In this document: piece by piece, positions 10,134-14,832 of the stretch
Layout: each line of letters starts with the position of its first letter
How positions within the stretch are numbered: position 1 is the first letter of the stretch
NCBI GenBank assembly: GCA_903839845.1
Contig: CAIMEA010000207.1
Coordinates: 1-41,310 of the forward strand
Direction of reading: 5' to 3'
DNA: 41,310 nt
From: an uncultured Hyphomicrobiales bacterium
GTDB taxonomy: Bacteria > Pseudomonadota > Alphaproteobacteria > Rhizobiales > Xanthobacteraceae
Translations under genes and position numbers: made by a program
Notes under the pieces: model-generated
The model's database searches: none
Told to the model about the DNA's origin: nothing
The model's input: the letters and a program-made list of their open reading frames with translations, nothing else

Positions 10134-12428
10134 ATGGCAGCGTTTTTCACCGATCAACTCGACTACATCCTGTTTTTTTACGGGCTGGCCTTCATTCTTC
10201 TGGGGGCGATATCCTTTGCAGTGTCGCGCGGCACGCAGCGGACCATGCCGTGGCCCTGGCTGGGCGCCTTCGGCTACATTCATGGCACTGGCGAGTGGCT
10301 TGATCTGCTGGCGCTGATCCTCGGCGACAATTCCGGCTTTGCCGTGGCGCGCACCGCGCTGATGACGGTTTCCTATATTCCGTTGATAGAGTTCGGCCGG
10401 CTGCTTGCGATCAGCCGTGGCCTGCGCGTGCCGGGCAGCTGGATCTATTTGCCATTACTGGCTCTGGTATTCGTCGGATGGTGTCTGGTCGGCGTCAACG
10501 GCGCCAACGCCTTTGCCCGCTATGTACTGGCCTTTCCCGGCGCGATGCTGGTCTGTTGGCTGCTGGCAATACAGGCACGCGATGCGCCGTCGGCGGAAAA
10601 ACGATGGTTGCTGGCGGGCGCCGCAGGCTTCGGCCTTTACGCTCTGGCCGCCGGTCTTGTGGTTCCATCGACGCCCGATTGGGACGGCGATTTTTTCAAC
10701 GGTGACATGTTCATTGCCGCGACCGGCATGCCGATTCAATTCGTGCGTGGCGTACTGGCCTGCTTCCTGTCTTTCGCGATCTGGGTCTATTGGGGCCAGC
10801 GGCTGGTCGTCGAAACGGATTCGGCGCTCTATGCCAAATTCCACAAGCGACAATTTGTGTGGACGATTTCGGCCATGGGCGTGATCCTCATCGCCGGCTG
10901 GCTGCTGACGCAGGTGCTCGGTGGAATCTATAGAGCGAATGTCGAGGAAGAAGCGCTCGGTGACCTAAACCTGATCGCCAGCCGTCTTGCCGGTGAAACT
11001 GCGGCCATCGAAGGAATGGTCCGGGCTCTTGCCGGGTCGCGCTCGGTGGGCGAACTGCTGGCGGGTAACCCGAAGGCCGATCGTGCGCGCGTCGACGACG
11101 TGCTGTCGTTGGAGACCGAGGCATCGGGCGCGAGCCAGGGTTTCATTCTCGACCGCCGCGGCAAGGTGGTTGCGGTAGCGGTGCGCGGCAGCACCGATGA
11201 CGTGACAATCGGACAGGACTTCAGCCAGACCCCGTTTTACAAGACCGCGATTGCCGGGGCGCCGGGCTTTCATTTCACCATCGAGGGCGGCCTTCACACT
11301 CCCAATTATTACGCCAGCTATCCGGTCCGCTCGGGGTCCGGACGTATGGTCGGTCAGACGATCGGCGCCGCGGTTTTCAAAAAACATCTTAGCCGCGTCG
11401 AGAGCGATCTGATGCAATTCGACCGTTCGTTTGCCATGATCGATCGCAATGGCATCGTGCTGCTCACCAATCGCCCGGAGATGCGGCTGCGCGCCGTTTG
11501 GCCGTTACCGGCCGGTTTGATCGACGCATTGTCGGAGGTCTACGGCACGATCAATCCGGCGTCTTTGATGAAACAGGAAACCGTCGGTTCGGTCTGGACC
11601 GTCTTCGACGGCGACCGCGATTATGTGCAGCGGCGCAGCCTCGAACATGGCGACTGGTCGCTGATGACCTGGAAAGTGCCGCAAGGCATTTTTGCCAGCC
11701 GCGTTCTCGGCATCATCATCACCTTGCAAATGGCGATCCTGGCTTTGGTCTATCTGGCAGGCCGCGAACGCTGGATGCACGATAACGTACAACTGGAAAA
11801 ACGGTTTGAGCTGGAGGAGCTGGCGCGCAGTCTCGACAAGCGCGCCGCCACCGACCCGCTGACCGGCCTGTTCAACCGGCGCAAAATCGACCGCAGCCTG
11901 GCCAACGAAATCATGCGGGCGCAACGCTACAAGACGCAGCTGTCATTGATGCTGTTCGACATCGATCATTTCAAGAAGGTCAACGACAATTTCGGCCACC
12001 AGGCCGGCGACGCGGTGCTGGTCGAACTGGCGCGCTATACCGCCGGCCACATCCGCAACACCGACGTGCTGGCGCGCTGGGGCGGCGAGGAATTCGTGAT
12101 TCTTAGTCCCGGCAATAGCGGGCCGATGGGCTGCCTGTTCGCCGGCAATCTGCTCGCCGGTTTCAGAAATCTGAGGATCGCCGACGTCGGCACAATTACC
12201 TGCAGCTTCGGCGTCGCCGAATTCCAGGACGGCGATACGGCGGAAACGCTGCTGGCGCGCGCCGACGACGCGCTGTACCGGGCGAAAAGCAACGGCCGCA
12301 ACCGGATCGAACTGGCCGATCAGTCGCCGGCGCCGGGTACGTCGATTGCACCCGCCGAGGTCTCCAGCGGCGAAGCGCCGGACGCGAAGACGACTTTCGA
12401 GCGCCGACCTGAAGCCAAGGCGATTTGA
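10134..12428 (+). CDS. membrane diguanylate cyclase (GGDEF) with extracytoplasmic sensor region
   Basis: A 764-residue protein predicted to make cyclic di-GMP. Residues 1-250 hold about seven hydrophobic helices of an MHYT/MASE-like membrane module, followed by another helix near 240-265. Residues 270-530 form a periplasmic sensor-like region resembling dCache (DFSQTPFYKTAIAGAPGFH, NYYASYPV). A final membrane segment near 535-555 and a short helical linker (LEKRFELEELARSLDKRAATD) precede the GGDEF domain. The catalytic motif is GGEEF at about residues 650-654, with inhibitory I-site RNTD at 641-644, exactly five residues upstream. It is therefore likely both active and product-inhibited. No EAL domain is present. 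The sensed signal is unknown. Confidence 0.92.
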   Translation: MAAFFTDQLDYILFFYGLAFILLGAISFAVSRGTQRTMPWPWLGAFGYIHGTGEWLDLLALILGDNSGFAVARTALMTVSYIPLIEFGRLLAISRGLRVPGSWIYLPLLALVFVGWCLVGVNGANAFARYVLAFPGAMLVCWLLAIQARDAPSAEKRWLLAGAAGFGLYALAAGLVVPSTPDWDGDFFNGDMFIAATGMPIQFVRGVLACFLSFAIWVYWGQRLVVETDSALYAKFHKRQFVWTISAMGVILIAGWLLTQVLGGIYRANVEEEALGDLNLIASRLAGETAAIEGMVRALAGSRSVGELLAGNPKADRARVDDVLSLETEASGASQGFILDRRGKVVAVAVRGSTDDVTIGQDFSQTPFYKTAIAGAPGFHFTIEGGLHTPNYYASYPVRSGSGRMVGQTIGAAVFKKHLSRVESDLMQFDRSFAMIDRNGIVLLTNRPEMRLRAVWPLPAGLIDALSEVYGTINPASLMKQETVGSVWTVFDGDRDYVQRRSLEHGDWSLMTWKVPQGIFASRVLGIIITLQMAILALVYLAGRERWMHDNVQLEKRFELEELARSLDKRAATDPLTGLFNRRKIDRSLANEIMRAQRYKTQLSLMLFDIDHFKKVNDNFGHQAGDAVLVELARYTAGHIRNTDVLARWGGEEFVILSPGNSGPMGCLFAGNLLAGFRNLRIADVGTITCSFGVAEFQDGDTAETLLARADDALYRAKSNGRNRIELADQSPAPGTSIAPAEVSSGEAPDAKTTFERRPEAKAI

Positions 12429-12504
12429 CGCCGATCAAGGCGCCACTGCCAGCAAACTGCGCTTATGCTGCAAAGCCGAGAAAAGGCTCAGCGAGGGGGC
12501 AAGG

Positions 12505-13287
12505 ATGGCATCGATTTCCGGCAAGACCGATCCCGTGGTGCGGCGCATCAGCGCGACCGATGTGACCGATGCGCTCGGCAAGGGTCTGCGCGACTTCCAG
12601 GCTATGCCGATTTACGGAATGCTGCTGGGCGCGATGTTCGCTGGCGGCGGCAGCATGGCCGTGCTGACGACCACGGCCTTTGGCATGAGCTATCTGTCGT
12701 ATCCGCTGGCCGCCGGCTTCGTGCTGATCGGTCCCTTCGCGGCAATCTTTCTCTACGAACTCAGCCGCCGCCGCGAGGAGGGCAGGCCGATCCAGCTTGT
12801 CGACATCGGCAAGACCGTGATCGGCCGTTCCGAGATCGGCTGGATGGCCTTCGTCACCATCTTCATTTTTGTCATCTGGATCTATCAGGTTCGGCTGTGG
12901 ATGGTGCTGCTGCTCGGCCTGCACGCCTCGTTCGCGAGCCTTCAGCAATTCATCGCCGTGCTGCTGACGACCAATGAAGGCCTGGTGTTCCTGCTGATCG
13001 GCAATATCGTCGGCTCGGTGCTGTCGCTCGTGCTGTTCTCGCTGACCGTGGTGTCATTTCCGCTGTTGCTCGACCGCGATGTCGATTTCATCACCGCGAT
13101 GATCACCAGCGTGCGCGCGGTGGTGATGAGTCCGCTGCCGATGATCGGCTGGGCGGCGGTAATCGTCGTATTAATGATCGTGTCGTGCCTGCCGTATTTT
13201 CTCGGCCTCGTGGTGACCTTGCCGATCCTTGGTCATACAACCTGGCACTTGTACCGGCGCATCGTCGCGCCGGTAGACAAGGGCTGA
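12505..13287 (+). CDS. DUF2189 family integral membrane protein
   Basis: A 260-residue protein with about six hydrophobic helices, including GMLLGAMFAGGGSMAVLTTT, LAAGFVLIGPFAAIFLYE, WMAFVTIFIFVIWIYQ and a C-terminal LGLVVTLPILGHTTWHLYRR. This layout, with the N-terminal ISATDVTDALGKGLRDF segment and a HxxWHLYR-type ending, fits the DUF2189 (COG5473) family of unknown function. The ATG at 12505 follows GAGGGGGCAAGG and starts just before the conserved part; the frame is open further upstream into arginine-rich sequence. It lies 76 bases after the diguanylate cyclase on the same strand and may be co-transcribed, but no functional link is known to me. Confidence 0.82.
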   Translation: MASISGKTDPVVRRISATDVTDALGKGLRDFQAMPIYGMLLGAMFAGGGSMAVLTTTAFGMSYLSYPLAAGFVLIGPFAAIFLYELSRRREEGRPIQLVDIGKTVIGRSEIGWMAFVTIFIFVIWIYQVRLWMVLLLGLHASFASLQQFIAVLLTTNEGLVFLLIGNIVGSVLSLVLFSLTVVSFPLLLDRDVDFITAMITSVRAVVMSPLPMIGWAAVIVVLMIVSCLPYFLGLVVTLPILGHTTWHLYRRIVAPVDKG

Positions 13288-13290
13288 CCG

Positions 13291-13557
13291 TCAGCTCTTG
13301 TTCAGGCCGCAATATCTTTGCGCGCCATTGTCCCAGCAGCCGGTTTTCAAACAGTACGACAATCGCGTGCCGCAGCCGGTGGCGCAGACCGACACGGCGA
13401 CGCGCGCGGTTTTCTTGCAATTGGTCAGGCAGGTTTTTTCCTCGCCGCTGCATTTCATCGGGTCGGCTGCGGCCGCCGGTGCGCCGAGTATCGCGTTGGC
13501 AAGGAGCGTGACGCCAAGGAGCGCGGCTGCGAAAGTTTTGCGGGCGGTTCCATTCAT
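13291..13557 (-). CDS. small secreted cysteine-rich protein
   Basis: An 88-residue protein with a clear signal peptide (KTFAAALLGVTLLANAILGAP, cleavage probably after APAAAA near residue 31). The mature part of about 55 residues has eight cysteines, including two CX3C pairs (CLTNC and CATGC) separated by ten residues, and four other cysteines. Such a pattern suggests a disulfide-stabilised periplasmic protein or a metal-binding one. I do not recognise a named family. It is convergent with the DUF2189 gene (3-base gap) and divergent from the L,D-transpeptidase-like gene, with a CtrA-type site 34-48 bases upstream of its start. Confidence 0.75.
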   Translation of the reverse strand: MNGTARKTFAAALLGVTLLANAILGAPAAAADPMKCSGEEKTCLTNCKKTARVAVSVCATGCGTRLSYCLKTGCWDNGAQRYCGLNKS

Positions 13558-13590
13558 GCGCGACAGCCATAGCTGAGTCGAGCGACCGCA

Positions 13591-13605
13591 TTAAGGCCCG
13601 CTTAA
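13591..13605. promoter_or_regulatory. CtrA-type binding site (TTAA-N7-TTAA)
   Basis: TTAAGGCCCGCTTAA matches the full CtrA consensus spacing TTAA-N7-TTAA and is followed by a C, as in the TTAAC half-site. A third TTAA starts at 13608, within a second copy of TTAAGGCC. A GANTC site (GAGTC, 13575-13579), the CcrM methylation target, is 12 bases away. The box lies in the divergent region between the cysteine-rich protein and the L,D-transpeptidase-like gene. In alphaproteobacteria CtrA controls cell-cycle and envelope genes. Direct binding is inferred. Confidence 0.5.
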
Positions 13606-13641
13606 CGTTAAGGCCTGCATAGTTTTCCCGAACAGAGGCAG

Positions 13642-13659: not shown

Positions 13660-13698
13660 GGCCGTGGCGTCACTTTTGTTGAGTTCGGGTAAGCGTAG

Positions 13699-14832
13699 AT
13701 GGCGTATCGGACCGCGACGTTTGACGGCGCAGCTTCCTATGAGGGCCGCCGGGTCGCGTCTGGAACCAGGCGCGGCGTGCTGCGCACACTCGTCCGCCAT
13801 TTCATCCTCGCCACCGCTGCGGTCGCCACCGTCGGCCTGACCGGCGCGACAGCCATCGTGGCGTCCGGCTGGTTTCTGGGCACCGCCACTGTCACCAATC
13901 CTTACGCCGCGACCGCCGTGCGTTCCGGACCCGGCCGGCTGGCGCTCGCCGATCCTTCGGCGACGGGGGCGCCTGGAACCAATTTCGACACCGCCTGGGC
14001 ACGGACGCAATCATCACGAATGGCCCAAGGAATCGAGCAGGGCAGGCCGCTCATCATCGAGGTTCCGGAAAGTCCGCCGGTGATCGCGGCAGCGTCGATT
14101 CCCGTACCACTGCCCAAGCCCGAGCAGCCCGAGCAGGCCGTCAGTCTGGATGCGCCGGCGGTATCGCCGGCGGCCTTGCCGATGTTGCGGCCGATCCTGC
14201 CATCGCTGGCGCACGCACCGATCGAGCCGCCGGCCGCGAAGGTCGCCGTCGCGCCGCCCGCCGTCGCCACGTCCGACCAGCGCAGTCTGACGCAAGAGGC
14301 GCACAACAAAGAGCCGGCCGTCGCCGACGCCGACATTCGCACCGCCGTTTATGACATCGCCGCCGCGACCGTCTATCTGCCGAACGGGCAAAAGCTCGAG
14401 GCGCATTCCGGTCTTGGCGAAAGGATGGACGATCCGCGCCACATCAAGGTGCGCATGCGCGGGCCGACGCCGCCGAACGTCTACGATCTGACGTTGCGCG
14501 AGGAACTGTTCCACGGCGTGCGCGCCATCCGCCTCAATCCGGTCGACCGCGACAAGATGTACGGCCGCGACGGCATGCTGGCGCATACGTACATGCTTGG
14601 ACCGAACGGCCAGTCGAATGGCTGCGTCTCGTTCAAGAACTACGACAAATTCCTGCAAGCCTTCCTGAAGGGCGAGGTCGATCGTCTCGTCGTCGTTGGC
14701 GAGCTCGGCAATACATCGTGGCGCACCGCCGCGCGGCAGGCCGGGCCGCGCGCCGGTCCGCCGCGCCGCTATGCGGCCTATAGCGAAGCGCCGGAAAATC
14801 CGAAGCGCGAACGCAGCTTCTGGACGTGGTAG
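13699..14832 (+). CDS. membrane-anchored L,D-transpeptidase-like protein (DUF2778/Tlde1-type domain)
   Basis: A 377-residue protein. One membrane helix near residues 37-57 ([19 protein letters not shown]) follows an arginine-rich N-terminus, so the rest is periplasmic. Residues 60-215 are proline/alanine-rich linker. The C-terminal domain, about 220-345, has the DUF2778 layout: [14 protein letters not shown], then [17 protein letters not shown] carrying the catalytic-type His and Cys, and a basic tail. DUF2778/Tlde1 domains are related to L,D-transpeptidases and modify or cleave peptidoglycan; some are type VI effectors. Here the anchored form and the lack of secretion genes argue for a resident wall enzyme. 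The CtrA-type site upstream would fit cell-cycle timing. Confidence 0.8.

Follow-up and report, generated by a model that had tools for sequence, protein, structure and literature searches.

Between two divergent genes of an uncultured Hyphomicrobiales bacterium, a CtrA-type box and a CcrM-type GANTC site stand side by side, and the question that this arrangement raises is whether they constitute one promoter pattern serving both genes or two elements, each with a gene of its own. The first-pass annotation of this DNA had favored the former view and, from the combined pattern, had linked both genes to the cell cycle. Here, this reading is re-examined by comparison of the window, i.e., the whole stretch of 41,310 nucleotides that was analyzed, with related loci and with the home genome, an assembly of 240 contigs totaling 4.04 Mb.

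The divergent genes and the region between them

The relevant features of the window are the following:

13291-13557, minus strand: open reading frame for a Cys-rich small secreted-type protein of 88 aa
13566-13571, minus strand: candidate -10 of the Cys-rich gene, TATGGC within GCTATGG, 8 nt before the ATG and conserved directly after GANTC
13575-13579: CcrM-type GAGTC, matching the extended motif YGAKTCG as TGAGTCG, by direct reading
13589-13594, minus strand: candidate -35 of the Cys-rich gene, TTAATG, 17 nt from its -10, by direct reading
13591-13606, plus strand: CtrA-type full box TTAA-N7-TTAAC, TTAAGGCCCGCTTAAC, by direct reading
13608-13611: third TTAA, by direct reading; relatives often have CTAA or TTAA here
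13618-13623, plus strand: candidate -10 of the Tlde1 gene, CATAGT, from its fixed distance to the box in aligned loci
13699-14832, plus strand: Tlde1-domain (DUF2778, L,D-transpeptidase-like) protein of 377 aa, from PF10908 and orthologues

Direct reading bears out the letters and coordinates that the first-pass annotation gave for TTAA-N7-TTAAC, the third TTAA and GAGTC, and the divergent Cys-rich and DUF2778 genes that it placed on either side are indeed present. The second and third TTAA together form the palindrome TTAACGTTAA (13602-13611), and the candidate -35 of the Cys-rich gene doubles as a half-site of the CtrA-type box. A strict sigma-70 scan of the region returned no promoter, and searches of the same region for intrinsic terminators and Rfam families returned neither. 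An imperfect direct repeat, TTAAGGCCCGCTTA / TTAAGGCCTGCATA, with copies 17 bp apart (13591-13621), spans the box and the candidate -10 and may be a local duplication. The 21 bases that abut the Tlde1 ATG, GTTGAGTTCGGGTAAGCGTAG (13678-13698), are almost invariant among close relatives; they are unlike a Shine-Dalgarno site and are perhaps a leader element. Many same-genus loci repeat GAGT...GCGTA ahead of this ATG.

The 377-aa protein matches the Pfam profile PF10908 (Tlde1_dom, which we take to be the former DUF2778) with 102.4 bits against a cut-off of 30.1, starts with a hydrophobic stretch (by eye) and contains SNGCVSF, presumably the catalytic Cys motif. It is a putative wall enzyme, the domain being named after an L,D-transpeptidase effector; the Tlde1 family is best known as a type VI secretion effector domain. 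No solved relative of the protein was detected by sequence at E up to 0.1. The start of the Cys-rich protein resembles a signal peptide (by eye), and its invariant cysteines form a near-palindromic array, CX6CX3C-X10-CX3CX6C in the window protein, followed by GCW and a last Cys. Searches with this protein against Pfam, NCBIfam and PHROG gave no match within the limits applied, and its predicted fold, a helical hairpin (mean pLDDT 74.7), had no PDB match at E up to 0.001. Among 198 genomes of the family, 150 contained matches to the Tlde1 protein (E up to 1e-30), compared with 21 for the Cys-rich protein (E up to 0.001); named contigs carrying an orthologue of the latter are titled Pseudolabrys, Rhizobium sp. 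Q54, Bradyrhizobiaceae or Rhizobiales. Together with its homologues L104-L123, the window protein represents a small secreted-type family that is apparently undescribed. At 10134-13287, upstream of its gene, a DUF2189 membrane protein and a GGDEF protein, the latter with a weak match of Cache type, are encoded.

Word counts in the window and the home genome

TTAAN7TTAA occurs once in the window, compared with a mean of 0.06 in shuffled versions, 6 of 100 of which contained at least one. In the home genome, 37 of the 133 TTAA pairs with spacings from N2 to N14 have the N7 spacing and the other 12 spacings have about 8 each, i.e., N7 is ~4.6 times commoner than the others (binomial p ~4e-12), whereas the backward control (AATT) shows no excess at N7 (30/403). 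The variant TTWAC-N6-TTAAC is found 23 times, its backward control 9 times. Intergenic location was rejected as evidence for the box, off-spacing TTAA pairs (20/22) being as intergenic as the N7 pairs (35/37). GANTC is depleted about threefold in the window (60 observed against 193.6 expected from shuffles), as would be expected where a CcrM-type methylase reads this word.

The Pfam search of genes adjacent to N7 sites, which was confined to such genes and covered 30 of the 47 listed, identified genes of the wall, division, cell shape and the flagellum (a DivIC-type protein, a class A PBP, an M74 endopeptidase, an amidase, a crescentin rod protein and FliK), along with four outer-membrane beta-barrels and ordinary metabolic genes; seven of the 30 had no Pfam match. 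Such a gene set would suit a CtrA regulon.

The CtrA-type box accompanies the Tlde1 gene

The first-pass annotation had made conservation of the TTAA spacing in orthologous regions a test of its reading, and the spacing is indeed kept. Allowing for one mismatch at most, 26 of 27 same-genus loci have an N7 box upstream of their Tlde1 gene, 13 of them a perfect one; the remaining locus, L024, has a two-mismatch site only. Among loci from other genera of the family, which were collected by similarity, the box is found at the same threshold in 25 of 47 (12 perfect). The reversed-sequence control yielded 3/27 and 5/47, respectively, and among 131 other genes in the fetched loci and in the window, 3 have a box; in all these counts, related loci do not represent independent samples. 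Of the other-genus loci, 22 fall short of this threshold, and some of them may be paralogues or have been given a wrong start. Several Tlde1 starts are guesses based on a simple codon score, for which 21 long ORFs of the window served as the training set. The counts exclude L023, which lies at a contig end, and L030, for which no start was found, and two loci from other families of the order were counted apart, L027 (one mismatch) and L029 (no box). The home genome encodes a second Tlde1 gene (L172, C226:23700-26000), for which no box was detected in the upstream stretch examined.

In the aligned Tlde1 upstream regions, the half-sites are retained and the spacer letters vary, the second TTAA is followed by C in 27/27 and 22/25 aligned rows, and a gcAtagt consensus follows the box at a fixed distance. 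If CATAGT is the -10 of the window's Tlde1 gene, the 5' base of the box would lie at about -39 of the start site deduced from it. Many relatives have TTTAC-N6-TTAAC in place of TTAA-N7-TTAAC. The Cys-rich gene was found by tblastn in 15 of 30 Tlde1 loci, with flanks of at most 1.5 kb, and the box also stands at Tlde1 genes for which no Cys-rich gene was found nearby. In 11 other-genus loci (L138, L149, L152, L155, L158, L160, L161, L162, L166, L167 and L168), the box is embedded in a longer common element, approximately TTAATCNGCATTTAACTAAAA, which is followed after 10-20 bp by another TTAAT or CTAAT.

The GANTC site accompanies the Cys-rich gene

The Cys-rich gene was compared across 16 divergent pairs (L001-L008, L010, L012, L015, L017, L018, L020, L021 and L033). 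All 16 have a GANTC 17-22 nt before the Cys-rich ATG (start to start), and all match the extended motif YGAKTCG; the background rate of GANTC in these loci is about once per 608 bases. GANTC was sought by script on the upstream side of an in-frame ATG, at 10-39 nt from it. For 14 of the 16 pairs, taking the first in-frame ATG leads to an identical start; the starts of L012 and L015 were chosen via the GANTC script itself. On the coding strand, all pairs have CGACTC followed by A or G; downstream of it, ahead of the ATG, comes a -10-like stretch (GCTATR, GCGTA or similar). By reading, the end of the -10-like hexamer lies 7-8 nt upstream of the ATG in 15 of 16 pairs; the exception is L017, where it lies 4 nt upstream of the ATG and 7 nt upstream of a second one. 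Such proximity of the hexamer to the ATG suggests a leaderless transcript, with transcription of the Cys-rich gene probably beginning at the ATG or immediately beside it.

Outside the syntenic set, inspection by eye of the Cys-rich homologues L109-L117 and L123, several of which have doubtful starts, did not reveal the same GANTC arrangement; L118-L122, which are below the tblastn limit, were left out of this comparison. A genome-wide search for the GANTC-adjacent leaderless pattern gave 4 and 5 matches, the backward controls 4 and 2; the pattern used was one base too long between C and TA and consequently missed the window's own site.

Two modules at variable distance

The distance between the box and GANTC separates the 16 pairs. 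It is 10-12 bp in nine, the subgroup that includes the window, and 71-88 bp in six, and L010 has no box within 160 bp of its GANTC. Sequence comparison thus assigns the box to the Tlde1 gene and GANTC to the Cys-rich gene as independent modules, and the one pattern of the first-pass annotation comes apart in the six widely spaced pairs, which also disfavor a single shared box as the basic state. Given the varying distance, what was seen in the window is the compact state of two modules. The tight packing in the nine pairs places a CtrA half-site at the candidate -35 of the Cys-rich gene. Of the reading as cell-cycle promoters, the part that is supported is the one concerning CtrA, the box being conserved and the regulators encoded in the home genome, and the part that has to be given up is the unity of box and GANTC.

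Regulator genes in the home genome

Homologues of the relevant regulators are encoded in the home genome: CtrA (NF045991, 426 bits vs a cut-off of 350), GcrA (PF07750, 187.5 vs 26.9), a CcrM-type enzyme (RAMA, 68.8 vs 35.2) and a SciP-type protein (PF06627, presumably the SciP family, 140.3 vs 23.5). GcrA and CcrM score below the NCBIfam equivalog cut-offs (162.7 vs 280 and 591.2 vs 830, respectively), the name of the CcrM model suggesting Caulobacter. PF00486 has ten matches in this genome. The region upstream of ctrA contains a TTAACCATG half-site and TTAA-N7-TTTA, and no perfect full site was found in it. The motifs, their positions and conservation, the independence of the two modules and the presence of these regulator genes are all shown by comparison of sequences.

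Proposed mechanism and alternatives

We consider it likely that the region contains two adjacent, back-to-back cell-cycle promoters, one controlled by CtrA, for the Tlde1 gene, and the other by GcrA and CcrM, for the Cys-rich gene. Phosphorylated CtrA would bind the full box at 13591-13606 and activate the gene of the Tlde1-domain wall protein from a -10 near 13618, and this CtrA-Tlde1 module would be old and widely kept in the family. On the other side, GAGTC (13575-13579) would lie between the -35 and -10 of the Cys-rich promoter, with GcrA-sigma70 acting according to its methylation state. In the compact subgroup, CtrA would probably modulate the Cys-rich gene too, either activating or blocking it, because the CtrA half-site coincides with its -35; CtrA control of this gene is plausible mainly where box and GANTC touch. 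CtrA binding, methylation, start sites, timing and the sense of control are all deduced here. Given that the neighboring conserved sites resemble those of CtrA and of GcrA/CcrM, the two genes are probably turned on at fixed points of the cell cycle. A more far-reaching proposal, which we put forward tentatively and rate somewhat below even, is that CtrA control of the Tlde1 wall enzyme is ancestral to the family, amounting to a fixed, cell-cycle-timed modification of the wall, and that the CtrA and GcrA-CcrM circuits became physically fused into one promoter pair in the window's subgroup, where they would assign the wall enzyme and the secreted, disulfide-rich protein to phases that are either successive or opposite.

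The unified picture of the first-pass annotation, taken as a single bidirectional CtrA switch in which one box activates both genes and GANTC only adds methylation timing, appears unlikely. The full box is palindromic, a half-site occupies the Cys-rich -35 in nine of 16 pairs, and, according to the accessible text of PMC6180460, one CtrA site drives the divergent fliF2p-fliL2p promoters of Rhodobacter sphaeroides; however, the box is 71-88 bp away from the GANTC promoter in six of 16 pairs, none lies within 160 bp in L010, boxes are present at Tlde1 genes without a Cys-rich gene found nearby, and the conserved C of TTAAC points toward the Tlde1 side. The box might also belong to an OmpR-family regulator other than CtrA, CenR-like or otherwise, which we regard as improbable. 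An 11-bp direct repeat fits the family as a whole, and TTTAC-N6-TTAAC in many relatives and the ten PF00486 matches leave room for another member; CenR itself controls a putative L,D-transpeptidase in R. sphaeroides, as reported in the part of PMC9275681 consulted. The TTAA-N7-TTAAC form is nevertheless the CtrA ChIP-seq motif of Hyphomonas neptunium in the available portion of PMC7200025, and CenR in particular was rejected as the owner of the box on account of its motifs: the Rhodobacter motif TGA-N8-TGA is present in 0/27 same-genus Tlde1 upstream regions (280 bp) and nowhere in the window's intergenic region, and the repeat of the CenR-dependent srlA promoter of Sinorhizobium, as far as given in the accessible text of PMC9561847, is a different one.

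That the sites are AT-rich words brought together by chance and devoid of regulatory meaning seems very improbable. GANTC has only five letters, an N7 pair turned up in 6 of 100 window shuffles, and off-spacing TTAA pairs are likewise mostly intergenic (20/22), but chance does not account for the excess of the N7 spacing, the conservation above the reversed-sequence and other-gene controls, or the constant place of GANTC. On these comparisons, box and GANTC are not fortuitous, and the arrangement of two separate promoters outlined above is the reading retained below.

Relation to known systems

Both kinds of promoter are already known; the comparisons that follow rely on the accessible portions of the cited papers. 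In Caulobacter, full CtrA sites near -35 activate and sites over -10 repress, and the ctrA P2 site lies at -39 (PMC4287350); function of CtrA sites at N6 spacing has also been reported (PMC6180460). In promoters of Caulobacter, GANTC sits at roughly -24 to -29, GcrA protects ctrA P1, when fully methylated, from -35 to -10 (PMC3667746), and the extended GANTC motif is YGAKTCG, with Brevundimonas showing no preference for the extended form (PMC7987155). Shared CtrA sites can activate both promoters, as at fliF2p-fliL2p, or act in opposite ways, as in Caulobacter, where flgBp is repressed and fliOp activated (PMC6180460).

The box of the window resembles the CtrA sites of Caulobacter crescentus (PMC4287350) and H. 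neptunium (PMC7200025) in its TTAA-N7-TTAA(C) form and in the presence of an encoded CtrA, and CtrA full-site promoters in that its 5' base would lie near -35 to -39 relative to the inferred start (PMC4287350). It differs from those systems in its putative target, a Tlde1-domain wall gene, and in TTTAC as the first half in many relatives. The GANTC module, similarly, is akin to the GcrA-CcrM promoters ctrA P1 and mipZ (PMC3667746, PMC7987155) in having GANTC in the predicted -35 to -10 region, the YGAKTCG form and encoded GcrA and CcrM, and unlike them in that its putative target is an undescribed small secreted Cys-rich protein whose transcript is probably leaderless.

What appears to be new is the target, i.e., the Tlde1 wall gene with its Cys-rich neighbor, and the gradation from modules that stand apart to modules that are fused. 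The literature searched, most subscription papers and preprints being outside the search, contained no paper joining CtrA with DUF2778 or Tlde1, so the link appears undescribed therein. If true, it would place a Tlde1-family wall-remodeling enzyme under a cell-cycle master regulator in a large alphaproteobacterial group. Pairs with modules apart and pairs with modules fused would represent a natural series on how CtrA and GcrA-CcrM control share a promoter. As at fliF2p-fliL2p of R. sphaeroides, one CtrA-type box stands between close divergent promoters (PMC6180460); unlike there, the box is associated mainly with one gene, the other has its own GANTC module, and the two are apart in six of 16 pairs. 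The combination of GANTC and CtrA elements is also found in the ctrA region of Caulobacter, with its GcrA-type P1 and CtrA-type P2 (PMC4287350, PMC11264516), where, as far as the accessible text describes it, both elements serve one gene in one direction, whereas here they face divergent genes.
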